A stretch of DNA of 17,521 nucleotides, taken from assembly GCA_016932895.1 (NCBI GenBank), contig JAFGCA010000811.1:1-17521 (forward strand), given 5' to 3'. Shown one piece after another: positions 3,021 to 17,521 of this stretch. The position numbers and the translations under genes are program-made. The notes below the pieces were generated by a model that saw only the letters and a program-made list of their open reading frames with translations, was not told the DNA's origin and did not search any database. Origin of the DNA: Sedimentisphaerales bacterium (GTDB taxonomy: Bacteria; Planctomycetota; Phycisphaerae; Sedimentisphaerales; SG8-4). How positions within the stretch are numbered: the stretch's first letter is position 1; the number at the start of each line of letters is the position of its first letter.

Positions 3021-4292
3021 CTACCCGGCCTTGATGTCGTAACAGAACAGCACGTCGGCGTGCCGCAGATAGAGCTTCCCATCGCAGATGACCGGATGGG
3101 CCCAGGCCGGCCCACTCATACCGGGCCGCTTGGGAGGGGTGAACGTGCTCTTCAAGTTGTACTTTTCCGGCGTGGCCTCCACCAGCGCCACCAGTCCGTT
3201 GTCGTAGCGAAAGTAGAGGTGCCCGTCCGCATAGAGCACGCAGCCGGAACCCCTTCCGGGCTGGTCCGCGTGCCACATGACCTTGCCCGTCTTCATCTCA
3301 ACGCACGCAGGTTCACCCTTGTTGTGGTTGTGGCCCCCGTAGATGTAATCGCCGACTTTGAGGAACCCGCCGTGATGATTCTGGAACTGGTCCTTGTCGA
3401 GCCAGTACACTTCCTCGGCCTTGACGCCGGCGCCGGCGCGCACGAGCTTGAGCAGCGCCGAGCCGGTCTGATACGCCGTGGAGACAAACACATAGTCCCC
3501 ATCAATGACTGGCGTCGAAATATTCGCCACTCGATTGGCGACCCGGTTGTATCCCCAGAGAAACTCCCCCTTGTCGGAGACGCCGATGAGACCTTCGTTG
3601 GTCAGTTGCACGTATTGCTTGACGCCGGCCCCGCGGCTGATTCGGATGGAGGAATAGCCGGCTTCTTCCTTGCCGTTCGGGCCGATGTCGGGCATGGCGC
3701 ACTTCCAGATGAGCTGCCCGGTCTCTTTGTTCAGAGCAACCACGGCGGCCTTGTGCCCGCCCGGCGTGCACAGCAGCCGGTCGCCGTCGATCAGGGGTGA
3801 TTCGCTGAATCTCCAGCCGGGATTGGACGCGCCGCCCAGGTTATCCAGCAGATGTCGCCTCCAGACGAGCTTGCCGCTGTTGGCAGAGATGCACACGACG
3901 TCCCCACTGGTACCGACAGCGTAGACAAAACCGCCGGCCACCGTCGGGGTGCACCGCGGCCCGTCCCGATGCGACGGGCCCACACGGGCCGCCCACAGCT
4001 CCCGGCGCGTATCCAGATCGTAGGCGTACACGTATTGGGCCTTCTCGCGATCGCCCATCGTGTAGAGCGCGCCGTCGGCGATGGAAACGGTCGAAAAGCC
4101 CGGCCCCAGACCCGAGATTTCCCACAACAGCTTCGGGCCCTCTGCGGGCCATTCTTTCAGCAGGCCGGTCTCCGCGCACACAGCATCGCGGTTTGGCCCG
4201 CGCCACTGCGGCCAGTCGCTGGCCCGCGAACCGCAAACGAAGGTCATCAACGCAAAACAGACAAAAACAGCAGACTTCACGAAATGTCGCAT
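3021..4292 (-). CDS. Secreted PQQ-like (BamB-type) beta-propeller protein
   Basis: The 423-residue protein starts with a clear Sec signal peptide (about residues 1-24, with G-S-R-A before the likely cut). The mature protein opens with S-D-W-P-Q-W-R-G-P-N-R-D, the signature start of a very large family of exported PQQ-like propellers abundant in Planctomycetota. Repeats of about 40-50 residues follow, each with a strand ending in 'tG.l.W' (for example R-R-E-L-W-A, G-K-L-V-W-R, G-Q-L-I-W-K, G-K-V-M-W-H). These are typical propeller blades. No PQQ-dependent dehydrogenase catalytic motifs were recognised, so it is probably a binding or scaffold propeller rather than an enzyme. Its function is unknown. 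The gene begins the leftward cluster and faces the divergent FMN-reductase gene across 199 bp. A GGAAGGG ribosome site lies 9 nt before the ATG. Confidence 0.9.
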   Translation of the reverse strand: MRHFVKSAVFVCFALMTFVCGSRASDWPQWRGPNRDAVCAETGLLKEWPAEGPKLLWEISGLGPGFSTVSIADGALYTMGDREKAQYVYAYDLDTRRELWAARVGPSHRDGPRCTPTVAGGFVYAVGTSGDVVCISANSGKLVWRRHLLDNLGGASNPGWRFSESPLIDGDRLLCTPGGHKAAVVALNKETGQLIWKCAMPDIGPNGKEEAGYSSIRISRGAGVKQYVQLTNEGLIGVSDKGEFLWGYNRVANRVANISTPVIDGDYVFVSTAYQTGSALLKLVRAGAGVKAEEVYWLDKDQFQNHHGGFLKVGDYIYGGHNHNKGEPACVEMKTGKVMWHADQPGRGSGCVLYADGHLYFRYDNGLVALVEATPEKYNLKSTFTPPKRPGMSGPAWAHPVICDGKLYLRHADVLFCYDIKAG

Positions 4293-4396: not shown

Positions 4397-4491
4397 CCCT
4401 GTGCTCAGTCGGAGTTCGTACAATATACCGCAGGCCGGGTTGCCGACCAACGGAGAATCCGCCTCAACCGCCGCTCGAAAGGAGAGAACAC

Positions 4492-5205
4492 ATGGAGCGC
4501 ATCACACGTCGCAATTTCGTCGCCAACTCGATTGCCGCCGGCGCCGCCGCAGCCGCCGTCACCGGGCCGGCCCTTGCAGCACAAGACCGACCCGTGGGCA
4601 CAGCCAAGATCAAAATCGTCGCCGTCTCCTGCAGCCCGCGCGCGGGCAAAACGACGGCGACCTCGCTGCGAGTGAGCCTGCAGGCGGCCGCCGAGGTCAG
4701 CGCCAAGATCGAGACCGAATTGATCGAGCTGGCCGGCCTGCGGATCAACGGCAACCTCGCGGCCGGCATCCCGCTCGAACCGAACGAAAAGGACGACTTC
4801 CCCGCCCTCGTTCCCAAACTCAAGGACCCCAACGTGCGCGGCATCATCATCGGCACGCCCGTGTATTTCAGCAATATGAGCTCGTTGTGTAAGGCCTTCC
4901 TGGACCGTTGCATCGCTTTGTATAAGGACAACTGCGCCTTGAGCAACAAGGTCGCCGGCGTCCTGGCGGTCGGCGGCTCGCGCAACGGCGGCCAGGAAGT
5001 CACGATCCAGTCGGTGCAGTCGTCGCTGTACTGCCAGAAGATGATTGTCGTGGGCAACGGTGAGCCGGGACCGCGCAGCGGAGCGCGGATCTGGAGCGGC
5101 ATCGAAGGCGGTGTCGACAAGGACGAATACGGCATGAGCGCCGCCAAGTCCCTCGGCCGTCGCGTTGCGGAACTGGCGCTGCAATTGGGCGGCTCGACCG
5201 GCTGA
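4492..5205 (+). CDS. Tat-exported flavodoxin-like / NADPH-dependent FMN reductase family protein
   Basis: The 237-residue protein is the only convincing plus-strand gene in the window. AAGGAGAG lies 5 nt before the ATG. The N-terminus T-R-R-N-F-V-A-N followed by an Ala-rich hydrophobic stretch (residues 12-24) and A-L-A-A-Q is a textbook twin-arginine signal, so the folded flavoprotein is predicted to be exported. The mature part is an FMN-reductase/flavodoxin fold: V-A-V-S-C-S-P-R-A-G-K-T (43-54) is the FMN phosphate loop, and I-I-G-T-P-V-Y-F-S-N-M-S (119-130) is the conserved flavin-contact segment of the iron-sulfur-flavoprotein/WrbA-like group. The Cys-rich [4Fe-4S] loop of true Isf proteins is absent; only scattered cysteines remain. 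Because NAD(P)H is not expected outside the cytoplasm, electrons would have to come from another carrier (inference). It converges on the redox operon with a 13-bp gap. Confidence 0.87.
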   Translation: MERITRRNFVANSIAAGAAAAAVTGPALAAQDRPVGTAKIKIVAVSCSPRAGKTTATSLRVSLQAAAEVSAKIETELIELAGLRINGNLAAGIPLEPNEKDDFPALVPKLKDPNVRGIIIGTPVYFSNMSSLCKAFLDRCIALYKDNCALSNKVAGVLAVGGSRNGGQEVTIQSVQSSLYCQKMIVVGNGEPGPRSGARIWSGIEGGVDKDEYGMSAAKSLGRRVAELALQLGGSTG

Positions 5206-5218
5206 GCGCGCGTGCGCG
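5206..5218. other. 13-bp convergent gene junction of alternating G/C
   Basis: The stop codons of two convergent genes are separated only by a short alternating purine-pyrimidine run of G, C and one T. No hairpin with a T-tract is visible, so neither transcript has an evident intrinsic terminator here. Alternating GC can adopt Z-DNA under negative supercoiling, but nothing here shows that it does. Confidence 0.4.
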
Positions 5219-6802
5219 TCAGGAACCTTCCTCTGGGCGCGATTCGTCGCGGAACGCAAGCGCGCCGGTGGGACAGGCTTGCACGCATTGGGTCGCTGCC
5301 GTCCGCAGGCCCTCGGCCAGGGAGGCATCGAACGGCACGGCCACGCGCACGTCGAAACCCCGGCCGATGAACGTGAGCCCGAGCTCTTCCCGGGACGCCG
5401 ACGCAATCTCGATACAGATGCCGCAGTTGATGCATTTGCCCGGCTCGTAGATCACGTCGGGGTGCTGCGTGTCCTGAACGAAAGACCGTCGCTGCCCCTT
5501 GTATCTCGCCTGTCGCGCGCCGCAGGCCTGCGCGTAGCGCCGCAGCCGGCACGCCTCGGGCTTGCGGCAATCGCAGTGCAGGCACCGAGACGATTCGGCC
5601 CGCGCCTCGGACTCGATGAATCCCCCGGTTGGCCCGGAAGGCTTCTGTCGCGAGACGGAGCCGGCGGATTGCAGAAACGTCTCCATCTCGCCATCGGCGA
5701 GCGTGCCCATCCTGCTGTTGAACGGTCTGGCCGCGCCGGTCACCTCCGCGCCGGCGAGGTACTGCCCGATCGCGGCGGCGGCTTCTTTCCCGTCGGCCAC
5801 GGCGCGAACGGTCAGGCGCCGCTTACGCACTGCGTCACCGCCGGCAAAGACGCCGGGGACATCGGTCGCATACGTTCGGCTGTCGGCCTTGATCCCGTCG
5901 GCCGACACCGAGACGCCCAGATGATCCGCATCCCCCGGTTCCAACGCGCCGACGCCGACGAACACGGCATCATACTGCTTACGAATCTCGTCCATTGACA
6001 CGCCCACGCCGACCCGCGTGCGAAAGCGGAACTCCACGCCAAGCTTCTCGATGCACGCGATTTCGGCGTCCAGGACGTTATGGGGCAATTCCTCCGGCGA
6101 AACACCGTACCGTAACATCCCGCCGGGCTGCTCGTGGTCATCGAACACCGTGCAGGCAAACCCGTCGCGGCGCAAATAATAGGCGGCCGCCAGGCCGGCC
6201 GGGCCCGCGCCGATGACGGCCACGCGCTTGCCCCGTTCTGCGGTGCACACCGGTCGATAGCTCTCGTCCGATTGCAGATCCACACCGGCGACGAATCGCT
6301 TCAACAGGCAAATCGAGACCGCCTCGTCGTGCTGGGCCCGCCGGCACACCTTCTCGCACGGCGCCGGACAGATTCGTCCCAACACCGCCGGCAGGGCAAT
6401 GTCGCGCTTCACCGTCACGATCGCATCTTTCAACCGCCCCGCTGCAATCTGCCGGATCATCAGGGGGATATTCATATGGGCCGGACACGCCATATGACAG
6501 GGCCCCACGCAGTCGCCCACGTGGTCGCTGAGCAGCAGTTCCAGCGCCGACCGGCGCGCGTCGCGGACCTCTTCACAATCGTTTTCGACCTGCATCCCCT
6601 CGCGAGCCAGCGTGCCGCAGGCCGGCACCAACCCTTTGGCGCCGACGACCCTGACCACGCACACCATGCAACTGGTGGTCGCTTCGTGCCCGCGCAGATA
6701 GCACATCGTCGGGATCTCGATTCCCAGCTTCTCGGCGGCGTCAAGAATCGTCGCGCCGGCTTCGACCTCCACCGGGCGACCGTCTATGGTTAGTTTCGGC
6801 AT
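5219..6802 (-). CDS. NuoG-like [2Fe-2S] / GltD-like FAD Fe-S oxidoreductase chimera lacking the second nucleotide-binding domain
   Basis: The 527-residue protein begins 2 bp after the NuoEF gene and ends the operon. Residues 1-75 are a NuoG/HydA-type [2Fe-2S] ferredoxin (C34, C45, C48, C62). Residues 90-172 mix a NuoG-like H93/C98/C102 segment with the GltD N-terminal Fe-S region (C106, then G-R-I-C145-P-A-P-C149-E-x2-C153). An FAD Rossmann motif V-I-G-A-G-P-A-G-L-A follows at 196-205, with P-G-G-M-L-R-Y-G-V at 226-234. The FAD-closing motif G-V-F-A-G-G-D-A-V (317-325) comes only about 30 residues after the strand Y-D-A-V-F-V-G-V-G-A-L. The usual inserted NAD(P)H domain with its G-G-G-N-x-A-M-D motif, about 140 residues in GltD/NfnB, is missing. 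A Cys-rich segment (C407, C410, C412, C418) and a reduced ferredoxin (C457, C460, C463 with C510-P) end the protein. It probably passes electrons between the NuoEF fusion and another acceptor through FAD (inference). Confidence 0.88.
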   Translation of the reverse strand: MPKLTIDGRPVEVEAGATILDAAEKLGIEIPTMCYLRGHEATTSCMVCVVRVVGAKGLVPACGTLAREGMQVENDCEEVRDARRSALELLLSDHVGDCVGPCHMACPAHMNIPLMIRQIAAGRLKDAIVTVKRDIALPAVLGRICPAPCEKVCRRAQHDEAVSICLLKRFVAGVDLQSDESYRPVCTAERGKRVAVIGAGPAGLAAAYYLRRDGFACTVFDDHEQPGGMLRYGVSPEELPHNVLDAEIACIEKLGVEFRFRTRVGVGVSMDEIRKQYDAVFVGVGALEPGDADHLGVSVSADGIKADSRTYATDVPGVFAGGDAVRKRRLTVRAVADGKEAAAAIGQYLAGAEVTGAARPFNSRMGTLADGEMETFLQSAGSVSRQKPSGPTGGFIESEARAESSRCLHCDCRKPEACRLRRYAQACGARQARYKGQRRSFVQDTQHPDVIYEPGKCINCGICIEIASASREELGLTFIGRGFDVRVAVPFDASLAEGLRTAATQCVQACPTGALAFRDESRPEEGS

Positions 6803-6804
6803 AC

Positions 6805-9156
6805 CTACTCAACTCGAACGGCATCGGCGGGACAAACGCTCTGGCAGGTCCCGCATCGAATGCACTTGTCAACGTCTATTTCGTGCTTCTCGTACGGCTT
6901 CATCTCAATCGCATCGACCGGACAATGCTGGGCGCAAACGGTGCAGCCGATGCAGTCGTCGGTGATCTCATACGTGATAAGGGCCTTGCACTTGCCGGCG
7001 GGACAACGCCCCTGCACGTGGGCTTCGTACTCGTCGCGGAAGTACTTCATCGTCGACAGGACCGGGTTCGGGGCCGTCTTGCCCAGGCCGCAGAGACTGC
7101 CCTGCTTGACGATCCGCGCCAGGTGCTCCAACTCATCCAGGTCGGCCGGCTTACCCTCCCCGGCGCACAACCGCTCCAGGATATCCAACATGCGCCGCGT
7201 TCCGATGCGGCAAAACGTGCACTTGCCGCACGACTGATTTTGCGTGAACTCAAGAAAGTAGCGCGCGATGTCCACCATGCAGTCCGTTTCATCCAGCGCC
7301 ACCATGCCGCCCGAGCCCATCATAGCCCCGACCTCGGCCAGCGCTTCGTAGTCCACCGAATGGCTGTCCAGTGCGGTCGGGATACAGCCTCCGGACGGCC
7401 CCCCGATCTGCACGGCCTTGAGCCGCAGACCGCCGGCGATGCCGCCCCCGATCTCTTCGATGATCTGCCGGATCGTGATCCCCATGGGCACCTCGATCAA
7501 TCCGCCCCGGGCGACCTTGCCGGCCAAGGCGAAGACCTTGGTCCCCTTGCTCTTCTCGGTCCCGATACCGGCAAACGCCTCGGCGCCGTGGCGTATGATC
7601 CAGGGCACGACCGAGTACGTCTCGACATTGTTGATCAGCGTGGGCCGGCCCCACAGTCCCTTGTCCGCTGGATACGGCGGCCGCAGCGTGGGCATGCCCC
7701 GACGACCCTCGATGCTCGCCATCAGCGCGGTCTCCTCGCCGCAGACAAACGCGCCCGCCCCGGCCACGATCTTCAACCGCAGGGAGAAGTCACTGTCCAG
7801 GATATTCTCGCCCAGAAAACCTCGCTGCTCGCACGTGCGAATCGCCTCCGCCATGCGCTTGATGGCCAGCGGGTATTCCGCCCGGATATAGAGGTACCCT
7901 TCGCCGGCGCCGACGCAACGGGCGGCAATGGCCACGCCCTCGATGATGCGGTACGGGTAAGACTCCATCAGCATCCGGTCCATGAACGCGCCGGGATCAC
8001 CCTCATCGCCGTTACAGACGACGAACTTCTTCTCCGCAGAATGGCTCTGTACGGCCTTCCATTTCAAGTGCGTGGGGAAGCCCGCCCCGCCCCGGCCGCG
8101 AAGGCCGCTGCGCTCGATCTCCGAGGCGATCTCGTCAGGATTCCACTGCTTGAGGCATTTCTCCAGCGCCTTGAATCCGTCGTGACGCAGATACTCGTCC
8201 AGGTCCACCGGATCGGTATGGCCGGCGTGCTCGGTGGCGATATGCTTCTGCGGATCCGTGAAGCCGGCCACGTGCGTATCGCGAACGTTCAGGGAGTAGC
8301 GCGTCACGGCCCCCCACGCCTCGTCGGTCAGTATCCGGTCGAGCACGTTCGAGACAGCCGTAGCACTGCGCCGTCCCGGCCACCTTGGCTTGAAGTGACG
8401 CAACACAATCGCCCGGGCGTCCTGCGCCTCGACGTTGCCGTACCGAAACGAGTGGCCCGCGGGCAAAACGACCTCGACCAGCGGCGTCAGATAGGACATG
8501 CCGGAACACGCCACGCTTTTGACCACCGCCCGCGCCCTCGTCTGGGCCACGGCCTTCTTGAGGCTTTCGTACACCTGCCCGCTGCCGCTGGCCTGACAGC
8601 TCGAATCGAGACAGATGCGGATCTCCCCAAAGTCGTCGCGGCGCGGCCGGTGTCGCTCTTTGCGTCCCTTGCGCGCCGCCGCCTTCTCCTGCTCCAGAAA
8701 ATCCTTTAGGACCACCGGAACGCGATGGTCGTTCAAATGTCCGTAGACGATATCATCGATCTGGATGGCCGGCGCGAGCATGCAGCAACCGATACAGGCC
8801 ACCTTCTCCACGGTGAACAGCTTGTCGGCGTCGGTGTCGTCGTCGTCGGGAATCTTGAGGAAGCGTTTGAATGCGTCATAGACCTGCTGGCCGCCCTTGA
8901 CGTGACAAGCAGTGCCGATGCAGACGCGAATCGTATGCCGGCCCGCCGGGCGGTGGCGGAACTGATCGTAGAAGGTCGAGACCCCCGTGATGGCAGCCGG
9001 TGTGATGTCCGTCCGATCGCAGACGCGCTGCAACGCCTCCTTCGGCAAGTACCCGTAGTGCCCCTGGATGGCCTGGAGAATCTCCAGCACCTCATCCTTG
9101 CCGGTGCCGACTCTCGCCACCAACTCGTCAACGAATGTCAGGTCCAACTCTTCCAT
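6805..9156 (-). CDS. NuoE-NuoF fusion (HydC-HydB-like) NADH-binding FMN/Fe-S subunit
   Basis: The 783-residue protein fuses what are usually two subunits. Residues 1-160 are NuoE/HydC-like with a [2Fe-2S] site (C79-x4-C84, C121-x3-C125). Residues 175-255 form a second thioredoxin-like [2Fe-2S] domain as in HydB, but the expected fourth ligand is Ser (C182, C187, C217, S221). Residues about 285-705 are the NuoF core: the NADH loop R-G-R-G-G-A-G-F-P (353-361), the FMN motif C-N-G-D-E-G-D-P-G-A-F (381-391), G-A-F-V-C-G-E-E-T-A-L, and a [4Fe-4S] site (C643, C646, C649, C689). The C-terminus is a 2[4Fe-4S] ferredoxin (C735/738/741/745 and C765/768/771/775). This architecture matches NAD(H)-linked subunits of soluble HydABC/NfnABC-type enzymes, some of which bifurcate electrons, rather than complex I. 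The start is 6 bp after the propeller gene's stop. Which way electrons run is unknown. Confidence 0.93.
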   Translation of the reverse strand: MEELDLTFVDELVARVGTGKDEVLEILQAIQGHYGYLPKEALQRVCDRTDITPAAITGVSTFYDQFRHRPAGRHTIRVCIGTACHVKGGQQVYDAFKRFLKIPDDDDTDADKLFTVEKVACIGCCMLAPAIQIDDIVYGHLNDHRVPVVLKDFLEQEKAAARKGRKERHRPRRDDFGEIRICLDSSCQASGSGQVYESLKKAVAQTRARAVVKSVACSGMSYLTPLVEVVLPAGHSFRYGNVEAQDARAIVLRHFKPRWPGRRSATAVSNVLDRILTDEAWGAVTRYSLNVRDTHVAGFTDPQKHIATEHAGHTDPVDLDEYLRHDGFKALEKCLKQWNPDEIASEIERSGLRGRGGAGFPTHLKWKAVQSHSAEKKFVVCNGDEGDPGAFMDRMLMESYPYRIIEGVAIAARCVGAGEGYLYIRAEYPLAIKRMAEAIRTCEQRGFLGENILDSDFSLRLKIVAGAGAFVCGEETALMASIEGRRGMPTLRPPYPADKGLWGRPTLINNVETYSVVPWIIRHGAEAFAGIGTEKSKGTKVFALAGKVARGGLIEVPMGITIRQIIEEIGGGIAGGLRLKAVQIGGPSGGCIPTALDSHSVDYEALAEVGAMMGSGGMVALDETDCMVDIARYFLEFTQNQSCGKCTFCRIGTRRMLDILERLCAGEGKPADLDELEHLARIVKQGSLCGLGKTAPNPVLSTMKYFRDEYEAHVQGRCPAGKCKALITYEITDDCIGCTVCAQHCPVDAIEMKPYEKHEIDVDKCIRCGTCQSVCPADAVRVE

Positions 9157-9162
9157 AGAAGC

Positions 9163-10923
9163 TCAATTTACCTTGTCAACGGGGCCCGACTGCCTCTGCG
9201 CCGCTTGGCCGATGCAGTACAAGTTCTCGTCGCCCCGGATGTAAATCCGCCCGTCCACGAAGGCCGGTGAGGCAAAACACTCCTCGCCCAGCGCGCACGT
9301 GGTGATTTCCTTGTATTCCGGCCCGACCTCGGCAATGTGCATCACGCCCTTCATATCCAGCAGGTACAGCTTGTCGGCGACCATGCTGGGGGACGCCGTG
9401 AAACTCTCGCGCAGGTCATGCTCGTAGAGCTTCTCGCCGGTCTGCACGTTGCAGCAGACAAACAACCCCTCGCTTTCCATCAGATAGACGTACTGATCGT
9501 TGGCCACCGGGGAGCAGATGTCGGGTCCGGCCTCCTCCATGCGCCAGGCGATGTGGGTTTCGGTCACATCGCCCTGCCCGGTCGGCTTGATGCCGAGCAA
9601 GTGAGCGTACGGTTCGATCACGAGGATCAAGCCGCCCGCATAGATCGGGGAGCCGGCGACGTCGCCCGTGGCGCATTCGGCCCGCCACAACTCGCGTCCG
9701 TCGGACGGATCGTAGGCGACGGCGCACGGATCGGAGAGCGTCACAAGCTGGTACCGGCCCTCCACTTCGACCACCACCGGCGACGTCCAGGAGTTCGGTA
9801 ACGCCCGCGGGACTTCCCACACGGTGCGCCCCGACAGGCCGTCCAACGCGTAGAAGCGCGACTTGCCGTCCGTGCCGTCGCTCTGATCGTATTGAATGAG
9901 AACGAGGTTCTCGTAAGTTTCCAGAGACGTGGCGTAACCGTAGACGTTGTCGGGCAGGCCCAGGTTCTTGTGCCAGAGCCGCCGCCCGTTGAAATCGAAC
10001 GCAGCCACGTCGCCGGTGGCGAAGATCGCGTACACGCGCCGGCCGTCGGTTGCCGCGGTCGAAGCGGCGTACCCCGTGTCCTCCATCAGATCCAGCTCCG
10101 CATTCTCCGGCAGAGGCGCCGTGGGAACGTCGCCGCGCCAGAGCAGTCGGCCATCGGCGGCGTCGAAGCAGTACACCTCGCGAGCGTTCGGGTCCGCCCC
10201 GGTCAGGAAGATTCGGTCCTTCCAGACAACCGGAGAGTTTCGCCCCGGCAGCGGGACCTCCGCTTTCCACAGGACTCCCTCGCCCGTCTTTCCGTCCCAG
10301 CGCGTGGGGATGTTGGTGTACATACTAACGCCCGCTCCGCCCGGACCGCGGAAACGGGGCCACTGCTCGCGCATTTCCGCCATCGACGCGTAGGCAGGGC
10401 CTTGATCCTGGGCGTGGGCGAAATCCACGGATCCGCTGCTGTAGAGCAGCCAGGCGCCGCCCGCCAGCAGGACCAGGGCCCCCGCGACGGCCCAGCGCGC
10501 ATGCATGGCGGTTTCGATCTGAGCCTCGCCTACGTCGCGGACGGGCCCGGGACGCGGGGACTCTCTCGTCAGCAGACGCGCCACCTGGGCACCGATCAGG
10601 AAGACAACCACGCTGCCCAGCAGCATGTACGCAGCCTTGCGGTCGAACTCCCAGCGCCAGAGCCGGTCGCGCCGTATCTTCAGATCCAACTGGCGAATCT
10701 CGGCCAGCAACTCTTGATTGTCCGGCTCCTTCTGGACGCGGAGCTTCATGGCGTCCAGCTTGAGCTCCCGCGCCGGCCCGAGAACGGCGCTGCCGATGAG
10801 GTTGACAACCAGCAGGGCCGTGAAGACGGCCGCAAAAACAGCCCCGACAACGGCCGTCCTTCTCGCCGTCTGGTACCCGGCACCTGTCTCACGTTCACGA
10901 GTCTTTTCCACGGTTTCGGTCAT
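9163..10923 (-). CDS. Three-helix membrane protein fused to a PQQ-like beta-propeller
   Basis: The 586-residue product starts at the ATG 10921-10923, which shares one base with the stop of the NapH-like gene (TAATG), so translation is likely coupled. AAGGAG lies about 18 nt upstream. A longer in-frame extension to 11001 lies inside the upstream gene and was not chosen. Helices: TM1 about 23-46, TM2 about 97-117, TM3 about 144-163. Between TM1 and TM2 is a charged, probably coiled-coil stretch (51-92, rich in Lys/Arg/Glu/Leu). From about residue 185 (E-Q-W-P-R-F-R-G-P-G-G-A-G-V-S) the rest is a PQQ-like propeller with repeated 'dG..lWr' blades. With the N-terminus inside, the coiled coil and the propeller would both lie outside the cytoplasm (inference). 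No catalytic or haem motif was seen. It probably serves as a docking or structural subunit for the membrane Fe-S complex. Confidence 0.85.
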   Translation of the reverse strand: MTETVEKTRERETGAGYQTARRTAVVGAVFAAVFTALLVVNLIGSAVLGPARELKLDAMKLRVQKEPDNQELLAEIRQLDLKIRRDRLWRWEFDRKAAYMLLGSVVVFLIGAQVARLLTRESPRPGPVRDVGEAQIETAMHARWAVAGALVLLAGGAWLLYSSGSVDFAHAQDQGPAYASMAEMREQWPRFRGPGGAGVSMYTNIPTRWDGKTGEGVLWKAEVPLPGRNSPVVWKDRIFLTGADPNAREVYCFDAADGRLLWRGDVPTAPLPENAELDLMEDTGYAASTAATDGRRVYAIFATGDVAAFDFNGRRLWHKNLGLPDNVYGYATSLETYENLVLIQYDQSDGTDGKSRFYALDGLSGRTVWEVPRALPNSWTSPVVVEVEGRYQLVTLSDPCAVAYDPSDGRELWRAECATGDVAGSPIYAGGLILVIEPYAHLLGIKPTGQGDVTETHIAWRMEEAGPDICSPVANDQYVYLMESEGLFVCCNVQTGEKLYEHDLRESFTASPSMVADKLYLLDMKGVMHIAEVGPEYKEITTCALGEECFASPAFVDGRIYIRGDENLYCIGQAAQRQSGPVDKVN

Positions 10924-12224
10924 TAGTGTGCGGGGACCCGCTCCTTTTTCTGTTTCAATCGTTCGTGCTCCTTCGGACAGTAGCGGTAGCAGCGTCCGCA
11001 CGCCAGGCAGCCGGCCGGGTCCGCCTCGTAATCGCTGCGCCGCCGGCGGACCGATAGAGCGATCAGCTTTCCCGCCACCACGAAACCCAGGAACCCGCCC
11101 AGCAGCGCGCCGCCCAAAGCGAATCGATTGCGCAGCATCGAAGCCTGGCGGTAGAGATCGCCGCTGGCCCGGCCGGTCGCGCGAAACGCATCGCTGACGT
11201 CGTCGGTGCCCTCGACCTGTCCCGTCTCCTCCAGATAGACCCGCTCGGCGGTCCGCACAGTCGGATGCATCCGCGCCAAAGGCGCTTTCAGTTTATGACC
11301 GCCCCACGCTCCGGCGGCGACCAGGACCGGCAGCAGCACCAGGAACAACGCGAGCTTCCTCTTGGCAATTCGGTACTGCCCCGCCGGCCAGTCCTCGGTC
11401 GGCTCGTGAATGGCGCCGAAGGGACACGCGTCCTCACACAAGCGACACTTGACGCACTCGGTCGGCGTGATGGTGACGCGCCATTTCGACAGGCGCGAGA
11501 ACTGGCGCAACAGCACACCGTAGGGACACAGAAACCGGCAGTACGGCCGCCCGACGAAAAGCCCGATCAGCAACAGGGAGGTCCCGAAGACCAGAAGGTT
11601 CCAGTTGCCGCTGAACCTAAAGAACGCGACGAACGGATCGTAGCGACAAATGATAAACGCGCTGCCCGTAGCGGCAAAGAGCACGGCCGCTCCGAGATAC
11701 GCGTAGGCCAGAAGACGCAGGGCACTCTCCAGCCAGAGCGGAACCTTCACCGGGCGCACGAGCACCACGTCCTGGATCATCCCCAGGGGACAAACGGCCC
11801 CGCAAAACGTCCTGCCGAAGAACAGGGTAAAGGCCAGCGGCAAGACAAAGAAGAGCGCCGCCGTCATAGGTATCGCGTAGCTGCTGTCGAAAATCGTCAA
11901 CGTGACGTTTTGAATCGCCCCGATCGCGCAGATGCACCCGCGCCGCCAGAAACCGAAGTACAACAAGGAGAAGACCACCAGTGCGTAAATGGCGCGGCGG
12001 CTGCGCTGCTTGTGGATCAGGTACGACGCCAGTATCAGGGCCAGCAGGAAGACGGCCGCATCGACGTACTCATAGATGCTGTCACGGGCCGGCGGCACCG
12101 CCGTATCGGGAAGCTCGTAGCCACTCTCGAAGTCCGGCGGAGGGAACCGGTACTCTCCACACACCGCCAGAGACGGCGCCAGCAATGCCACGACGAAAAC
12201 GGTGAGACGAACGAGACGCGCCAT
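10923..12224 (-). CDS. NapH/NosR-like membrane-bound polyferredoxin
   Basis: The 433-residue protein starts at the ATG 12222-12224, 2 bp after the preceding stop. A longer frame to 12314 was rejected because M1 here begins a clean signal sequence (M-A-R-L-V-R-L-T-V-F-V-V-A-L-L-A). About seven hydrophobic helices follow (near 56-72, 78-92, 118-137, 170-187, 208-224, 290-306, 369-390). Two CxxxCP motifs, F-C141-G-A-V-C145-P and Y-C229-R-F-L-C233-P, are the hallmark of NapH/NosR/CcoG-type membrane iron-sulfur proteins. A [4Fe-4S] motif follows (C257/260/263/267-P), and there is another at the C-terminus (C406/409/412/416-P). G-C97-I-C99-A-I-G-A-I-Q-N lies on the opposite face. If the signal is cleaved, helix counting and the R-R-R-R after the last helix put all four Cys motifs on the cytoplasmic side. 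A 60-residue loop (307-368) faces outward. It is the likely trans-membrane electron wire of the operon. Confidence 0.88.
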   Translation of the reverse strand: MARLVRLTVFVVALLAPSLAVCGEYRFPPPDFESGYELPDTAVPPARDSIYEYVDAAVFLLALILASYLIHKQRSRRAIYALVVFSLLYFGFWRRGCICAIGAIQNVTLTIFDSSYAIPMTAALFFVLPLAFTLFFGRTFCGAVCPLGMIQDVVLVRPVKVPLWLESALRLLAYAYLGAAVLFAATGSAFIICRYDPFVAFFRFSGNWNLLVFGTSLLLIGLFVGRPYCRFLCPYGVLLRQFSRLSKWRVTITPTECVKCRLCEDACPFGAIHEPTEDWPAGQYRIAKRKLALFLVLLPVLVAAGAWGGHKLKAPLARMHPTVRTAERVYLEETGQVEGTDDVSDAFRATGRASGDLYRQASMLRNRFALGGALLGGFLGFVVAGKLIALSVRRRRSDYEADPAGCLACGRCYRYCPKEHERLKQKKERVPAH

Positions 12225-12226
12225 TA

Positions 12227-12790
12227 TCAATGAACCGCCTTTTTCAGCAGGTACGGCTGGTCCGCCGGAACCCGCTTGAACGCCTGCGAGGGACAGGCAA
12301 CCGCGATCGCGCATTCATTGCAGTTTAAGCACCGGTCGTGGCGAACCTGGAGATAGAGCGAGCCGTTGCCGAAAGCGTTGCATCCCTTGACGCATTTGCC
12401 GCAGCCGTTGCACAGCGACTCATCGATGGTGTACTGGTAGTACGGGTCCTCCACGAAAGTCCGCTTGATCGCGCCCGTCGGGCACAGCTCGTTCTCGGCA
12501 CCGGTATCCAGGGCCTTCGGCTCCGGGACCAGGTACGCCGTACAAAGATCGCAATATCCGCAGATAGCATACGAGTGGACGCACTTGACCGCCGATTCCT
12601 CCAGCACGCAATACGTCGCGCAGTTGCCGCATTGAATGCACAGGTGCGGATCGATCTGCCAGACCATGTTGTCACGGTTGTTCCGCGCCACGCTCAGGCC
12701 GGCGGCCCCGCCCAGCCCGGCCAGGCAGGCGCCCCACATACCTTCACGCAGAAACTTGCGTCTGTTCATCACGTCTTTGTTACGCGTCAT
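12227..12790 (-). CDS. Tat-exported ferredoxin with four [4Fe-4S] motifs
   Basis: The 187-residue protein starts at the ATG 12788-12790 with a near-perfect AGAGGAG 5 nt upstream. An alternative ATG at 12767-12769 has no ribosome site. The start overlaps the preceding 81-residue gene by 11 bp. N-R-R-K-F-L-R-E (9-16) plus a Gly/Ala-rich hydrophobic stretch forms a Tat signal. The mature part is packed with cysteines: C51/54/57/61, then C70, C77/80/83 and C103-P, then C127/130/133/137, then C154/157/160/166-P. This is enough for four [4Fe-4S] clusters, as in the NapG/DmsB/NrfC type of electron-transfer subunit. NapG partners NapH, and the gene directly downstream here is NapH-like. That makes a periplasmic electron-transfer partner for the membrane protein the best reading. 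It differs from typical NapG in sequence style, so no symbol is given. Confidence 0.88.
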   Translation of the reverse strand: MTRNKDVMNRRKFLREGMWGACLAGLGGAAGLSVARNNRDNMVWQIDPHLCIQCGNCATYCVLEESAVKCVHSYAICGYCDLCTAYLVPEPKALDTGAENELCPTGAIKRTFVEDPYYQYTIDESLCNGCGKCVKGCNAFGNGSLYLQVRHDRCLNCNECAIAVACPSQAFKRVPADQPYLLKKAVH

Positions 12791-13025
12791 CGTGGCTCCT
12801 CTTCATCGCGTGCCTAACCGAGAGGGCCCGCGGCAAACCACATTCCTCGAAGACCTCGCACTGCGAGCAAATCCCCTGGTTGAGGCACTTGCCTTCCCGC
12901 AGAAGGCGGCGTCGTTTGACGACCGCGGCCCCGCTGCCGGCGCCCAGCAGCGCCAGCGAGGCGTTTCTCAGCGCCCCGGCGAAAAAACGCCTGCGCGTAT
13001 GTTGGTTCTTTGCAGATTCGCTCAT
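12780..13025 (-). CDS. Small Tat-signal protein with four conserved-type cysteines (81 aa, hypothetical)
   Basis: The ATG at 13023-13025 overlaps the TGA of the NHL gene by 4 bp (ATGA). It has a purine-rich AAGGAAAG upstream, and the frame ends at TAA 12780-12782. The open frame extends far upstream, but that part lies inside the NHL gene in another frame and is not protein-like. The 81 residues contain T10-R-R-R-F-F-A-G-A-L followed by a hydrophobic Ala/Gly/Leu stretch, a Tat-type signal or N-anchor. Then comes C47-x5-C53-x2-C56-x5-C62 and a basic tail. Four closely set cysteines suggest one Fe-S cluster or a metal site (inference). I do not recognise the family. Its place between the NHL propeller and the Tat ferredoxin, with overlaps on both sides, argues that it is a real small subunit of the redox complex. 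Confidence 0.75.
   Translation of the reverse strand: MSESAKNQHTRRRFFAGALRNASLALLGAGSGAAVVKRRRLLREGKCLNQGICSQCEVFEECGLPRALSVRHAMKRSHDDA
12796..12802 (-). promoter_or_regulatory. Strong Shine-Dalgarno site fixing the start of the Tat ferredoxin gene
   Basis: On the minus strand the bases read AGAGGAG, ending 5 nt before the ATG at 12790. The site lies inside the end of the preceding 81-residue gene. It decides the start in favour of 12790 over the ATG 21 bp further in, and makes the 11-bp gene overlap real. Confidence 0.75.
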
Positions 13026-14044
13026 GGGCGTGCTTCTTTCCTTGCGAAGATTCTGATCACGTTTTTCGGTGGGTCCAGAATGTAGATGCGGCCGTCGGCG
13101 TCGGCGGCCACGTCCAGACCGGCCCCCTGACATTCCTCCGGTGTGTCGCAGATCTTGGCCTGCACGCCGTCGGTCAACTGCTCGTGGCCGGCCACCACTC
13201 CGACAAACCCGCCGTCGCTGTTGTATACTTTTACTCTCACGAGCCCCTTCTCGCTGGTGACGAAGCCCTGGTTGGGCAGCAGCGCGAAGTTCACGGGATT
13301 GCAGCAGCCGCAGAAGCCTCTGATATCGGCCGAGGGTTCGCCCCACCAGAACTCCAGGTCGCCTTCGCGCGTGTAGGCCTCGATGCGGTGCCGCCCCGGG
13401 TTAACCACTCGCAGCAGACCGTCGCGAGAGACCGCCACATCCATGTGAGGCCCCGGAACGACGAAACCCGGAATGTTCCGATCCGGATCCTTCTCGCCGA
13501 TGAAATCGATCAGGTTGCCCGCCAAATCATAGTGGAGCACGACGCGGTGACCTGCATCGGCGACGAATACGCTGTCGTTGTACTTCACAATACTGGTCAG
13601 GATCGCCTCTTCACCGAGAGGCTCCCAGGAGGCGAGGCGCCGGCCACCGTCGTCCCAGACCTCGACGTGGTCGGCCACACCCACGTATACCTTGTCATCA
13701 TCCGCCACCGTCAGGCAGCGTGGTTCACCGGCGACATCGATAATGCGCTGCAGGCTGCCCGCAGGGCTCAATATGCGAATCGCCTTGTCACCCGTGACAA
13801 AAATCCGTCCCTCGGAATCCAGGGCGAGGGCGCGGGACAGGGCAAAACCCGTGCTCAGCGGCTGGCCCACCTCCTCGTACAGAATGAGGTTGGGGTCCAC
13901 CCGCGCCAACTCGGTCAGATCGTAACTGAACGCGTCGCTCAGGCCACTACCGGACCGGCCCGTCGTATCGAGCTGAAGGACGGCCACCATCCCAACCGCC
14001 GCGACCACGACGACAAGGACCACCAGAAACAACTTGACGTCCAT
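13022..14044 (-). CDS. Membrane-anchored NHL/6-bladed beta-propeller protein with CGCC motif
   Basis: The ATG at 14042-14044 (340 residues) is chosen because it directly precedes the anchor M-D-V-K-L-F-L-V-V-L. A GTG at 14063-14065 would add seven residues and has AAGGAA 12 nt upstream, so it cannot be excluded. One hydrophobic segment (about 4-24) looks like an uncleaved signal anchor. The remainder shows NHL-type repeats: A-L-D-S-E-G-R-I-F-V, V-F-V-A-D-A-G-H-R-V, V-A-V-S-R-D-G-L-L-R-V, A-A-D-A-D-G-R-I-Y-I-L-D. Unusual for a propeller are the clustered cysteines F-C245-G-C247-C248-N-P and C299-x5-C305, which could bind a metal or Fe-S cluster or form disulfides. The gene is the first in the tight seven-gene operon, ends in a 4-bp overlap with the next gene, and lies downstream of a strong predicted promoter. 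Function unknown. Confidence 0.85.
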   Translation of the reverse strand: MDVKLFLVVLVVVVAAVGMVAVLQLDTTGRSGSGLSDAFSYDLTELARVDPNLILYEEVGQPLSTGFALSRALALDSEGRIFVTGDKAIRILSPAGSLQRIIDVAGEPRCLTVADDDKVYVGVADHVEVWDDGGRRLASWEPLGEEAILTSIVKYNDSVFVADAGHRVVLHYDLAGNLIDFIGEKDPDRNIPGFVVPGPHMDVAVSRDGLLRVVNPGRHRIEAYTREGDLEFWWGEPSADIRGFCGCCNPVNFALLPNQGFVTSEKGLVRVKVYNSDGGFVGVVAGHEQLTDGVQAKICDTPEECQGAGLDVAADADGRIYILDPPKNVIRIFARKEARP

Positions 14045-14110
14045 TTTCCCGGCTTCTCTTGTCACGATTATGCTCTATTCCTTTATCTGGAAACAACTTG
14101 CAGAAACAGC

Positions 14111-14139
14111 AGTATAGCAGGCATACCACGCAGGATCAA
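14111..14139 (-). promoter_or_regulatory. Predicted sigma70 extended -10 promoter of the redox operon
   Basis: Read on the minus strand, TTGATC (14139-14134) is followed by a 17-bp spacer and TATACT (14116-14111). TGC immediately before the -10 makes an extended -10 (TGCTATACT). It lies in the gap between the upstream propeller gene's stop (14147) and the NHL gene's start (14044 or 14065). It would begin transcription near 14104 and drive the seven genes down to 5219. Confidence 0.6.
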
Positions 14140-14146
14140 CGCCGCT

Positions 14147-15565
14147 CTACGGCCCAGCCACATCCAGACACGCCATGCGCGTCAGGTCCCGCACGATCAG
14201 CCGGCCCGAAGCCACGGCAATCGGCGCCCACGACTCGATTCCTTCCAGCACCTGCGCCTGGGCTAATTGCACGTACCCGCTGGAGGTAGCCTCAACGAGC
14301 GTAAGCACGCCGGAGTCGTCGAGAACGTAGATGAGGCCGTCGGCGATCGTGTAGGGGCCGCTGCCGAACCGGTTTTCGCTCGTGCTGGTCCAGACCACGT
14401 TGCCCTGCACATCGAGACAGCTCAACTGCTTGTCCATGCCGACGCCGTAGATGTAGCCTTCGTAATAGACCGGCGTATGCTGCATGGAGCCGAAGACATC
14501 CGTCGGGTGGGAGAACTCCACTTCGGGCACGACCTGGCCATCAGACTCAGTCAACCGCATCATCATGCACCCGCTGTCGTACTGGCCGTAACCGGCGGTG
14601 AAGAAGATGCGGTCCTCGCCGACAAGAACCGGCATCGGCACATTCGTGCGCACCTTCCACTGCTCCGTCTTCCACACCACGCTGCCGTCGGCGGCCGAGA
14701 CGCCGACGACGCCGCCGGCGTTGGTGGAACCGCCGCAGTAGATGTAGAAACGGCGTCCCTTGAATTCCATCGGTACGATGGACGAATGCGTCATCACCCA
14801 TTTGTCCGGGTTGGGCGTCTGCCAGACGATCTCACCGGTGGCACAATCCACGGCCATCATCAGCACGTCGCCGGCCGGCGCGATGATCGCTTTGCCGTCA
14901 TCTATCACAGGACACTGCGCCGCATACCACTGCGGTATCTTCGTGTTGTATTCCCGCACGAGGTTCAACATCCACTTGAACTCGCCCGTCCTGGCGTCCA
15001 GGCAGGTCACGTGGCCCTTGGGTCCCAGGGTGACAACGTATTCGTCGGTCACGGTCGGGACCGTCCGGCTCATGCCGTGCCATCGCTTGACCTTCACCGG
15101 ATAGGAGTACCGCCAGATGTCACGTCCATCCGCCAGCGAGAGACAGCGTACGACGTCCGCTTCGTTGGCTCGATCGTAGTCCAGCAGATACACTCTGCCG
15201 TTCAAGGCCGCCGCTCCGGCGTACCCCTCCCCCACCTCGACGGACCACAGCTCCGCCGGTCCCTCCTCGGGCCATTGTCGCCGCAGTGGCGTCTCTTCCC
15301 GGCTGACGCCGTCGTAGTCGGCCCCCCGGAAACGAGGCCAGGCGCCGGGCAGATCCGCCGGCACACCGTCGAGCGTCACCAGCGTGCCGGCAAGCTTGAC
15401 GGGAGCATCACTGGCGGCAATGCCCGCCGGCCGGTTGTCGCCGCCCGGCAGTCGCTCCTCGAGGTCGACCGCGGCGTCGGCGCTGAGCCAGACGTACATC
15501 AGGCAGATCACGCCCGCCACCGCAAACGCCATCGGCACGATGTCGGCAACGACCCGTTTCTTCAT
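14147..15565 (-). CDS. Membrane-anchored PQQ-like (BamB-type) beta-propeller protein
   Basis: The 472-residue protein starts at the ATG 15563-15565, preceded by AAGGGG 5 nt upstream. A 10-codon extension to 15595 was rejected for lack of a ribosome site. M-K-K-R-V-V-A-D-I-V-P precedes one hydrophobic helix (about 8-27) that probably anchors the protein with the rest outside. A linker of about 45 residues follows, then G-A-W-P-R-F-R-G-A-D-Y-D-G-V-S (74-88), the same opening motif as the other two PQQ-like proteins here. Blades follow with G-R-D-I-W-R, G-E-F-K-W-M, G-E-I-V-W-Q, G-S-V-V-W-K and G-N-V-V-W-T. No enzymatic motif was seen. It lies just upstream of the redox operon's promoter and may belong to the same system. 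The inverted-repeat element ends 28 bp before its start codon, so that element would lie in its leader if transcription begins upstream of it. Confidence 0.88.
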   Translation of the reverse strand: MKKRVVADIVPMAFAVAGVICLMYVWLSADAAVDLEERLPGGDNRPAGIAASDAPVKLAGTLVTLDGVPADLPGAWPRFRGADYDGVSREETPLRRQWPEEGPAELWSVEVGEGYAGAAALNGRVYLLDYDRANEADVVRCLSLADGRDIWRYSYPVKVKRWHGMSRTVPTVTDEYVVTLGPKGHVTCLDARTGEFKWMLNLVREYNTKIPQWYAAQCPVIDDGKAIIAPAGDVLMMAVDCATGEIVWQTPNPDKWVMTHSSIVPMEFKGRRFYIYCGGSTNAGGVVGVSAADGSVVWKTEQWKVRTNVPMPVLVGEDRIFFTAGYGQYDSGCMMMRLTESDGQVVPEVEFSHPTDVFGSMQHTPVYYEGYIYGVGMDKQLSCLDVQGNVVWTSTSENRFGSGPYTIADGLIYVLDDSGVLTLVEATSSGYVQLAQAQVLEGIESWAPIAVASGRLIVRDLTRMACLDVAGP

Positions 15566-15625
15566 CGCAACCCCTTGTATCGATTCGTACTGCACTTTTG
15601 CAAAATGGAGATTAGGCTTGCTTTA

Positions 15626-15775: not shown

Positions 15776-17521
15776 CTATTCAACGCGTAATGCATCCAGC
15801 AGGTGCCCGCGAAGCGCCAGGCCGGCGGCAATCCACACCCAAAGCGCGCCGCTGACGGCGATCAGCAGCACTGTGGCAGCCAGCGACAGATACGGGACCG
15901 CGCCGCCCGGTGACTGCAAAGCGGGGATCACCGCGATGACGGCGGAGAGGACCCCACACACCAGCCCGGCCAGCATCAGCCCGCCGTGTTCGTAGAATAC
16001 CATACGTTTCAATCGGGCCTTGTCAAATCCCACGGCCCGCAGCATCGCCAGTTCGCCCCGCCGTTCCAGCATATTGCGCAGCACCACCAGCCCCAGGCCG
16101 ACGCTGCCGAGAACCAGGCCCAGACCGCCGAGGACCATAAATATGGACAAATACGTGTTCTCGACGGCCCCGAAGGCGGCTTGTCGTTCGGCCGCCGGCG
16201 TCAGGACCAGTCCGTAATCTCTCAGCGCCGACGAAAGTTCGTCCGACACGCTCCCGACCGCGTCGGCGGGCGCATCGATCAGAAAAACGCCGTACCCATC
16301 CACCGAAGGGAACCGCGCGGTAAACTCATTCTCGGCAATCACCAAACTCCCCTGCAGGATGGAACTTTCGATCATCCCCACGATGCGCACGCGCAGAGTC
16401 AGACCCTTCTCGTCACTATACTCCAGCTCCTCTCCGATGTTCTTGCCCAGCGCCCAGAAAACCGTAGGGTAATCGCCCACGGCCGGCACCACTCCCGTGT
16501 CGAGATCCATATCCAAGAGATCCCAACCCGTCTCGTCCGCGTCCGTCACCACCTCGGTAAACGTAAATGCGTTTCGTCGAGCCAATTCCTTCGGATCCAC
16601 AGCGAGCAGCCGAGGCTGCTGGGCCCGGTTCAGATTGAAGCAACTGGCGTCGTCCCCCTCGCGCACGCGAAACTGGACCGCCTCGACGCCCGCAAGGCCC
16701 CGCTGATCCAATCCCAGTTCCTTGCGTCCCGCCTCGCCGTTCATATCGTGCAGAATGGCCACCGCCGATTCCCCGTACAGGGCAAAACCGCCGGTCCCGG
16801 AGCTTCTGCTCTGCGGCGCCTTGAGAGCATTTCTTCGGTTGGCTCCCACCGCGACGACCATGAACACGCCGCAGGCGAGCAGGCCGACGATAGCCAGACT
16901 TCGCCCGGTCCGGCGCGCCGAGCTGCGAAAACCCAGGCCCCGCAGGGAAACCATGGGCCTGTCCCAACCCGCCGCCAGCATGCGAAGCACCGCATGGCCC
17001 AGGCCCAGCTCGCCAAGCAAGAGCAGCGCCCCGGCTCCGAAAAACGCACCGGCCACCGCCTGGCTGTCACCCCCGGCCATGAGAGCCATAAAGGTGATGA
17101 CGCTTGCAAAGGCGACAATCGCCACGAGCAGGCCCAGCTTGCCTCGCAACCGGGAGCCCTTCCCGTCGGGGCGCGGTTCGAGATTGCCCGCCATCAACTG
17201 GCAGGCGGGTCGTGAAACCTGTTTTCGCAGCGTGACCCAGACGGCGAACAGCGCCGCGGCCAGCCCGCCCAGGCCGCCGGTCGCCAACGTCGCAGAATCG
17301 GCGTGAAACTGAATCGCCGCCCCGGTGACGGCGCCGCTCCACAGGGTGGAAAGGCCGTAGATCATCAATCGCGTATAGACCGCGCCGGCCCCGACGCCCA
17401 CGAGCGTCCCGAGCAACGCCACGAGCCCCCCCTCGGCCAGGAGCAGTTCCTTGACCCGGTGGGCAGGCCAGCCAACCGCCAGAAGCACACCCACCTGAGA
17501 GCTGCGACTCTCGACCCCGAA
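15776..17521 (-). CDS. FtsX/MacB-type ABC-transporter permease (N-terminus beyond window)
   Basis: The frame is open to the right edge (581 codons visible). A GTG at 17492-17494 is inside the protein, because the residues before it (F-G-V-E-S-R-S-S-Q-V) continue the family motif. Two copies of the FtsX signature are visible: S-S-Q-V-G-V-L-L-A-V-G-W-P at the edge and R-G-E-L-A-M-L-R-A-V-G-F-D-K near the C-terminus, each followed by hydrophobic helices. Further helices and a long soluble, extracytoplasmic-type domain of about 200 residues lie between them. This is the layout of large macrolide-export/lipoprotein-release type permeases with duplicated FtsX domains. Such permeases work with a separate ATPase, expected beyond the right edge. 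The substrate is not determinable. The stop lies 12 bp from the nested inverted-repeat element. Confidence 0.88.
   Translation of the reverse strand, partial: FGVESRSSQVGVLLAVGWPAHRVKELLLAEGGLVALLGTLVGVGAGAVYTRLMIYGLSTLWSGAVTGAAIQFHADSATLATGGLGGLAAALFAVWVTLRKQVSRPACQLMAGNLEPRPDGKGSRLRGKLGLLVAIVAFASVITFMALMAGGDSQAVAGAFFGAGALLLLGELGLGHAVLRMLAAGWDRPMVSLRGLGFRSSARRTGRSLAIVGLLACGVFMVVAVGANRRNALKAPQSRSSGTGGFALYGESAVAILHDMNGEAGRKELGLDQRGLAGVEAVQFRVREGDDASCFNLNRAQQPRLLAVDPKELARRNAFTFTEVVTDADETGWDLLDMDLDTGVVPAVGDYPTVFWALGKNIGEELEYSDEKGLTLRVRIVGMIESSILQGSLVIAENEFTARFPSVDGYGVFLIDAPADAVGSVSDELSSALRDYGLVLTPAAERQAAFGAVENTYLSIFMVLGGLGLVLGSVGLGLVVLRNMLERRGELAMLRAVGFDKARLKRMVFYEHGGLMLAGLVCGVLSAVIAVIPALQSPGGAVPYLSLAATVLLIAVSGALWVWIAAGLALRGHLLDALRVE

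Follow-up and report, generated by a model that had tools for sequence, protein, structure and literature searches.

What does a soluble NAD(H)-linked iron-sulfur module do when its genes are joined in one operon to those of a NapGH-like membrane wire and of propeller proteins? This question is raised by a 17,521-nt stretch of DNA (hereafter, the window) from a Sedimentisphaerales bacterium (GCA_016932895.1, contig JAFGCA010000811.1, positions 1-17,521 of the forward strand). An earlier note on this DNA had described seven adjoining minus-strand genes with gaps of -4, -11, +2, -1, +6 and +2 bp, all of which we reproduced from the open reading frame (ORF) coordinates. As listed in Table 1, they encode an NHL propeller, a tiny four-Cys protein, a ferredoxin (Fdx), a NapH-like polyferredoxin, a membrane-anchored PQQ-like propeller (PQQmem), a NuoE-NuoF fusion (NuoEF) and a Fer2/GltD-type protein referred to herein as gene 7. 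On the evidence of ligands, domain architectures and gene orders, we conclude with moderate confidence that the operon specifies a relative of the bifurcating Bfu enzymes that is tethered to the membrane, its Bfu core being wired to a transmembrane arm like NapGH. All the evidence came from sequence comparison, except for a predicted structure of the NHL protein.

Ligands of the NuoE-NuoF fusion and domain losses in gene 7

The best solved relatives of the fusion were StnB-like and HydB proteins. As described in the sections of Schut et al. (2022, PMC9304861) that define it, the Bfu core comprises clusters B1-B5 and C1, among which the unusual B2 employs Cys residues and a His absent from non-bifurcating homologues, one of these Cys often being Thr, in about two thirds of BfuB. 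Alignment to A. mobile HydB mapped the B2 ligands of the window to C626, C664, H713 (the His, H525 in HydB), C718 and C723. C626, H713, C718 and C723 were kept in all 32 full-length fusions (window included), and position 664 was occupied by Cys in 21 and by Thr in 7 (together 28/32). The ligand Cys residues of B1, B3 and B4 in BfuB and of C1 in BfuC were likewise kept in 32/32, and a plain NuoEF was ruled out by these Bfu ligands. The earlier note had described a soluble NAD(H) NuoEF module and left its ferredoxin side unstated; the NAD(H) and Fe-S genes are indeed present, but the NuoEF part carries the bifurcating ligands, which suggests that, in addition to NAD(H), ferredoxin is probably used as a substrate.

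Gene 7 matched StnC/NfnA-type chains up to approximately residue 290, and its match to chain 9bov_A stopped at chain residue 291 and restarted at 418, thereby skipping the NAD(P) Rossmann domain. The NADP(H)-binding domain was absent from the window protein and from its 13 aligned relatives, and a working NADP site in gene 7 was ruled out because this domain is missing; the FAD glycine motif was intact in the window protein. The NuoG/GltD chimera of the earlier note has thus lost its NAD(P)-binding domain and, in other loci, the FAD domain as well. By its sequence, gene 7 is a Stn/Nfn-type BfuA lacking the NAD(P)-binding domain. Among the variants shown, only the 665-aa frame of L130 had an apparent second Rossmann segment and seems to keep both nucleotide domains; this frame (L130:10460-12454, plus strand) lies beside separate NuoE and NuoF matches in the same gene order, and may be an intermediate.

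The FAD domain was present in 29, absent in 11 and decayed in 1 of the 41 classified loci, the classes being set by domain presence; a strict GxGxxG pattern mislabelled several FAD-bearing proteins. On a tree of 60 fusions built by a quick method and containing 17 open forks, its presence or absence required approximately seven changes, at least four of them forced by well-supported branches, with 19 fusions left uncounted for a gene 7 that was cut off or unclassified. For L125 and L157-L161, which are among those uncounted, the gene 7 matches were short throughout; counting them would increase the FAD-less number. The FAD-less frames of approximately 340-390 aa (L115, L116, L118, L119, L121, L126, L128 and L132) matched from about residue 1 to 175 and again from 307-365 to about 518. 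The 242-aa frames of L122 and L123 had lost the Fer4_20 part as well, together with the first Cys of CxxCxCx5C. L129 had lost the FAD glycine motif, and in L125 a gene 7 remnant was fused to NuoEF, forming a 998-aa open frame (L125:10174-13167, plus strand) that consists of NuoE-NuoF and a minimal gene 7. Nevertheless, the Cys residues of Fer2 and of the C-terminal cluster were kept in all aligned rows, in an alignment that omits the N-terminal parts of the shortened forms, except for C463 (59/60; Phe in L128). The constant task of gene 7 is therefore best read, on these sequences, as an iron-sulfur electron relay.

The putative membrane wire and the conservation of gene order

The NapH-like protein possesses the CX3CP pairs C140/C144 and C228/C232, C192, a CxC at 96/98 and two [4Fe-4S] motifs, and 15 of its Cys residues were conserved in every row covering them. 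Its scores of 40.6 bits against the curated NapH/MauN model (cut-off 213.05) and 53.5 bits against the NosR model (cut-off 1000) were far too low to establish membership in either family, both of which it nonetheless resembles. A search of its profile against the PDB matched only ferredoxin stretches, and no window protein had a Pfam match to the FMN-binding domain of the NosR/PceC type. In the NapGH system, the clusters of NapH face the cytoplasm and NapG the periplasm. The 16 Cys residues of the exported ferredoxin, sufficient for four clusters, were also well conserved (15 in 31-32 rows; C47 in 29/32).

As for the propellers, the Cys-Cys-Asn-Pro stretch of the NHL protein was invariant in two alignments (28/28 and 50/50). 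The predicted structure of this protein (mean predicted local distance difference test score, pLDDT, of 86.7) displayed a long N-terminal helix and 24 strands of at least three residues, with the Cys-Cys pair in a loop; in the PDB, its profile matched generic NHL and designed propellers and nothing else, and its Pfam NHL match was barely above the cut-off (21.6 vs 20). The PQQ-like propellers remain unassigned because their scores lay far below the cut-offs of the quinoprotein model TIGR03075 (27.1 vs 480) and of BamB (54.7 vs 285). Haem c was ruled out by the lack of CxxCH in the ten window proteins scanned, in agreement with the earlier note, which had noticed none. Neither NapA nitrate reductase nor, by Pfam, an H-cluster domain or NiFe subunit was found among the window proteins scanned; the hydrogenase family matches covered Fe-S parts and fell far below cut-off.

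To place this arrangement in a wider context, loci were compared. The initial set comprised at least 80 loci from named genomes, among which L001-L019 and L024 were close relatives as judged by gene 7 and the more distant GltD relatives L020-L023 and L025-L080 were excluded; one comparison within this set covered L001-L026. The final count of 87 loci adds further genome samples and also omits the short L081-L110 and L135-L142; contig ends truncate many of these loci, and a few loci of one genome overlap. In this count, the core PQQ0-NHL-(tiny)-Fdx-NapH-PQQmem-NuoEF-gene 7 was unbroken in 38 (window included). The run from PQQ0, a further PQQ-like propeller, to NuoEF was unbroken in 46, and a NapH match was found in 74. 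The full run occurred in Planctomycetota (L001, L005 and L017), Bacteroidota (L009, L013, L014 and L019) and Lentisphaerales of the Lentisphaerota (L016), and partial runs at contig ends in Sedimentisphaerales (L018), Candidatus Zipacnadia (L007) and Aminicenantes (L006). The synteny of the soluble NAD(H)/Fe-S genes with the NapGH-like module proposed in the earlier note is hence conserved across phyla, and this conservation ruled out a chance neighbourhood.

The association was also evident at the genome level. Among 198 genomes of the class of G001, which we take to be Phycisphaerae, the NapH-like protein was found in 53 (expectation value, E, 1e-50), the ferredoxin in 54 (E 1e-20) and gene 7 in 36 (E 1e-80). 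The 52 genomes having both NapH and ferredoxin are referred to as cluster genomes and compared with 143 others, G039 and G154 (ferredoxin only) and G050 (NapH only) being placed on neither side; 33 of the 36 gene 7 genomes fell within the 52, at a threshold below which shortened forms of gene 7 score. In 48 of the 53 NapH genomes, NapH and NuoEF were no more than 4 kb apart. NapH-like matches (E 1e-60) were further found in 34/198 genomes of the order of G009, presumably Bacteroidales, and in 21/145 of the phylum of G012.

Proposed electron path, quinones and envelope lipid genes

In the reading that we favour, the NuoE-NuoF core would exchange electrons with NAD(H) and ferredoxin at the FMN and nearby clusters, and gene 7 would act as a BfuA-type relay, whose GltD-derived FAD part without a NAD(P) site would be dispensable. 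Within the putative complex, electrons would then pass from gene 7 to the cytoplasmic clusters of the NapH-like protein, be conducted by it across the membrane to the exported ferredoxin, and reach the periplasmic tiny four-Cys protein, the NHL protein with its Cys-Cys pair and the PQQ-like propellers. The direction would most likely be outward, from NADH and reduced ferredoxin to a low-potential acceptor in the envelope, and the most likely beneficiary would be the adjoining envelope lipid pathway of some relatives, which involves a terpene cyclase, a glycosyltransferase and an ABC exporter. Considering these genes together, we read the extended locus as three modules, namely the putative input (NuoEF and gene 7), the wire (NapH, ferredoxin and propellers) and an envelope lipid module.

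The lipid module was seen in relatives of the window; no terpene genes were seen in the window itself. Downstream of gene 7, several loci of Bacteroidota and Lentisphaerales encode a PQQ protein, then a GT4-type glycosyltransferase, a LolD-like ATPase and a long FtsX permease. L178, L183 and L184 carried, on a single strand and as far as each locus extends into the core, genes for a B12-radical SAM protein, a DUF116-polyprenyl synthase, a prenyl-repeat protein, a squalene-hopene-cyclase-like protein, a PQQ protein, a glycosyltransferase (unseen in L178), an ABC protein and FtsX, and then the core; in L179, L180 and L182, the same terpene genes lay downstream of gene 7. The cyclase directly preceded PQQ0 in 7 loci, and DxDD, the mark of class II terpene cyclases, was present in 10/10 cyclases examined. 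A terpene cyclase (E 1e-40) was found in 28/52 cluster genomes versus 13/143 others (Fisher p 1.8e-10). Of these 28 genomes, 12 have it on the same contig as NapH, at a distance of 3 to 15 kb, and 16 have it on another contig.

These genes invite the alternative that the operon supplies reductant for one step of an envelope terpenoid lipid made by the cyclase/ABC-exporter pathway, and does not conserve energy. This overlaps with the favoured reading and differs from it in purpose, and we regard it as a tentative possibility, less likely to be right than wrong. The single-strand arrangement of the terpene genes upstream of the core in L178, L183 and L184 and the consistent DxDD motif argue for it, as do L148, L149 and L134, in which the wire, or part of it, is paired with a terpene module and no fusion was found nearby or in the respective genomes (G424, G477 and G154). 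However, 24/52 cluster genomes lacked a cyclase at the threshold used, the cyclase was often on a contig other than that of NapH, and no periplasmic enzyme acting on lipids was recognized. The modules of these three loci (L148:171-5668, L149:11667-16918 and L134:6408-11397) each contain a ferredoxin of about 295 aa, a DUF116-polyprenyl synthase fusion, a prenyltransferase-repeat protein and a class II cyclase with DxDD, to which a B12-radical SAM protein is added in L134; a search of the open-licence PubMed Central (PMC) literature for such a terpenoid module listed nothing mentioning DUF116. It is a distinctly long shot that the full locus constitutes one system, in which a cyclised isoprenoid would be exported by a Lol-type apparatus and charged from NADH and ferredoxin through the bifurcating core and the haem-free Fe-S wire. 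If true, it would represent a new class of lipid redox carrier, or a reduced envelope lipid with its own electron-bifurcating reductase, in anaerobes of which many are quinone-less.

Another candidate partner is the menaquinone pool, into or out of which electrons from NADH (and ferredoxin) would move in the membrane domain of the NapH-like protein, as in NapGH, the periplasmic proteins being accessory. For Wolinella NapH, it has been proposed that quinol is oxidised by the membrane segments, and the CX3CP motifs of the protein are important, as stated in the relevant passages of PMC5928378. MqnE/MqnC-type matches (E 1e-40) occurred in 131 of the 198 genomes and MenD matches over cut-off in 6, and 26/52 cluster genomes had either of them; the other 26 had neither, a deficit commoner than in the non-cluster genomes (34/143; p 7.6e-4, a value that ignores kinship and to which incomplete genomes may contribute). 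G001, a chromosome record of 6.2 Mb, was among the 26 without MqnE/C or MenD matches. The lack of detectable menaquinone synthesis in half of the cluster genomes weakens a quinone role and favours a direct wire; we thus consider the quinone-linked scheme improbable and an obligatory quinone step unlikely, scavenged or unknown quinones being conceivable. The Rnf/Nqr-type family PF03116 was found in 41/52 cluster genomes and 59/143 others, and replacement of Rnf/Nqr by the operon was not supported, since so many cluster genomes retain PF03116.

Electrons could also flow inward, a propeller oxidising a periplasmic donor and the electrons being bifurcated to NAD+ and ferredoxin. Bfu enzymes are reversible and have a mid-potential third substrate according to the corresponding part of PMC9304861, and the PQQ_2 domains resemble those of quinoprotein dehydrogenases; however, the TIGR03075 and BamB scores given above were far below their cut-offs, and no donor enzyme was recognized in the cluster, so that we judge inward flow to be improbable as well.

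Several observations must be set against our favoured reading. Bifurcation by the fusion is something that we infer from its ligands, and cluster B5, a [2Fe-2S] cluster near the BfuB N-terminus, is uncertain: the window has only C182, C187 and C217 together with Ser221, and in the 32 fusions Cys was found 32 times at 187, 32 at 217, 28 at 186, 23 at 221 and 4 at 182. This gap is not decisive because StnB has been described with a single [2Fe-2S] cluster, as far as the pertinent section of PMC10482914 goes. The conservation of the 15 NapH-like Cys residues (27 or 28 of 28) derives from an alignment that omits partly aligning forms, e.g., L122, L123, L130 and L131. As the earlier note had remarked, no terminal reductase was recognized. 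Fisher values such as those above are overstated because related genomes are not independent, and among the 26 cluster genomes without quinone genes, 15 had no terpene cyclase either, which indicates that the lipid link is not the universal function.

The unity of the operon also had its exceptions. In 5 of the 53 NapH genomes, NuoEF was located on another contig (3) or not listed at all (2). Gene 7 stood apart from genes 0-6 in G008, G011 and probably G018, and G020 is cut by contig ends; in L010, the detached gene 7 was adjoined by a PQQ gene, a glycosyltransferase and an ABC exporter. Among the 20 genomes behind the gene 7 loci, three (G003, G005 and G015) had no NapH match at E 1e-20, and three of the 36 gene 7 genomes in the class sample (G025, G172 and G189) had neither a NapH nor a ferredoxin match; incomplete assemblies may explain some of these. 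Furthermore, among 14 genomes selected mostly because NuoEF was unseen near NapH, six (G530, G424, G477, G154, G210 and G077) had all or part of the NapH module but lacked a full-length fusion, giving only partial, HydB-like matches (the NapH of G077 lies near a contig end), and the other eight had a fusion, its N-terminus being cut in G385. These six genomes indicate that the input and wire halves are separable rather than a fixed unit, a separability that the favoured reading already includes. As to whether the NuoEF/NuoG pair and the NapH set are regularly found apart, a point raised in the earlier note, they were thus apart in a minority (5/53, 3/36, 3/20 and 6/14).

Window features and comparison with known systems

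Table 1. Features of the window, given with their positions in the 17,521-nt stretch.
Feature	Coordinates	Strand	Basis
Gene 7, 527 aa: Fer2 [2Fe-2S], Fer4_20, FAD half of GltD domain, CxxCxCx5C, C-terminal [4Fe-4S] site	5219..6802	-	Pfam, structure-chain alignment
NuoE-NuoF fusion, 783 aa, BfuC-BfuB-type: FMN domain; B1, B2, B3/B4 and C1 ligands	6805..9156	-	Pfam, ligand alignment
PQQmem, membrane PQQ-like propeller preceded by three transmembrane-like segments	9163..10923	-	Pfam PQQ_2
NapH/NosR-like polyferredoxin: signal-like first segment and six further transmembrane-like segments; two CX3CP, CxC, two [4Fe-4S] motifs	10923..12224	-	
Fdx, Tat-type (RR motif) NapG-like ferredoxin: 16 conserved Cys for four [4Fe-4S] clusters	12227..12790	-	
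Tiny Tat-type (RR motif) protein, C-x5-C-x2-C-x5-C	12780..13025	-	
NHL propeller: N-terminal membrane anchor, invariant Cys-Cys-Asn-Pro (C254-C255)	13022..14065	-	
PQQ0, PQQ-like propeller, first gene of the conserved core; possible ATG start 15565	14147..15595	-	
FtsX-type ABC permease, runs off the window end	15776..17521	-	
Downstream PQQ-like propeller; L001 orthologue (67%) likewise downstream of gene 7	3021..4292	-	

The Pfam matches underlying these assignments were Fer2_4, Fer4_20 and Pyr_redox_2 for gene 7; 2Fe-2S_thioredx, Complex1_51K, NADH_4Fe-4S and a C-terminal Fer4 pair for the fusion; Fer4_5 and Fer4 for the NapH-like protein; and Fer4 for the exported ferredoxin. The twin-arginine translocation (Tat) assignments are RR motifs read by eye. 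The tiny protein, scanned as the longer ORF 12780-13346, had no family match. A Cx4-7Cx2Cx3-7C pattern was present in 12 of 30 intervals between NHL and Fdx (L133 offering two candidate frames), and of the 18 intervals without it several were clipped at stop-to-stop ORF borders and some are perhaps real absences. No Rfam match reached the gathering threshold.

The interval 5219..14065, which the earlier note had taken as the whole locus, proved too short, since PQQ0 and FtsX belong upstream: PQQ0 preceded NHL in 56 of the 87 loci, and FtsX stood directly before PQQ0 in 13. On the other side, convergent to gene 7, the plus strand encodes at 4492-5205 a flavodoxin-type FMN reductase that has an RR motif close to its beginning. 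Among the loci compared, many of them ending less than 1.5 kb from gene 7, its orthologues occupied the same place only in L001/L085 (66%, one genome) and L081 (69%), and it was rejected as a general acceptor. Further downstream lie, on the minus strand, genes for an AhpC/TSA-type protein (1234-1935) and a TolC-type outer membrane protein (1-1218), neither of which had a close match near the operon among the loci compared.

No paper on this operon was found in searches of the open-licence PMC literature, in keeping with its earlier description as an undescribed conduit. The operon is widespread in several groups of apparently anaerobic bacteria, and a testable model is now at hand. If that model is true, the Bfu family would come to include the delivery of electrons across the membrane with no cytochromes and perhaps no quinones; in 2022, 17 BfuB clades were still without an assigned function (as counted in an excerpt of PMC9304861). 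Within a largely fixed operon, gene 7 has repeatedly lost its FAD domain, which makes it a clear instance of a bifurcating enzyme whose third substrate has changed. The question is testable because a gene 7 homologue (72% identity) is present in Anaerobaca lacustris, which is in culture (as reported in part of PMC11929135).

Among known systems, NapGH, NosR and PceC share with the present operon two CX3CP motifs, two [4Fe-4S] motifs and a four-cluster ferredoxin partner, whereas here no NapA, NosZ or dehalogenase was seen, no FMN-binding match was obtained, and an extra invariant CxC is present. The Bfu family shares the B1, B3, B4 and C1 ligands and B2 with its His, as laid out in the pertinent sections of Schut et al. 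(2022, PMC9304861), in which the membrane types described are Mbh- and Nuo-linked; the name NapH occurs nowhere in the main text of that paper. The sub-type I BfuABC [FeFe]-hydrogenases of Hydrogenedentota, as presented in an excerpt of PMC11406978, likewise combine a Bfu enzyme with DPD_II and FAD domains; by Pfam, however, no H-cluster domain occurs here. The Stn/Nfn-Bfu transhydrogenase (StnABC of Sporomusa ovata; 9bov and 9n5u) shares a NuoE/NuoF-type bifurcating pair and a third subunit of the Fer2-Fer4_20-GltD type. PDB entry 8oh5 is, we assume, also Stn, which fits its 1172-aa chain. In contrast to Stn, NuoE and NuoF are fused here, the NAD(P) domain is missing and gene 7 has only 527 aa versus 1172 aa, and the bifurcating pair is joined by genes for membrane and periplasmic Fe-S proteins.

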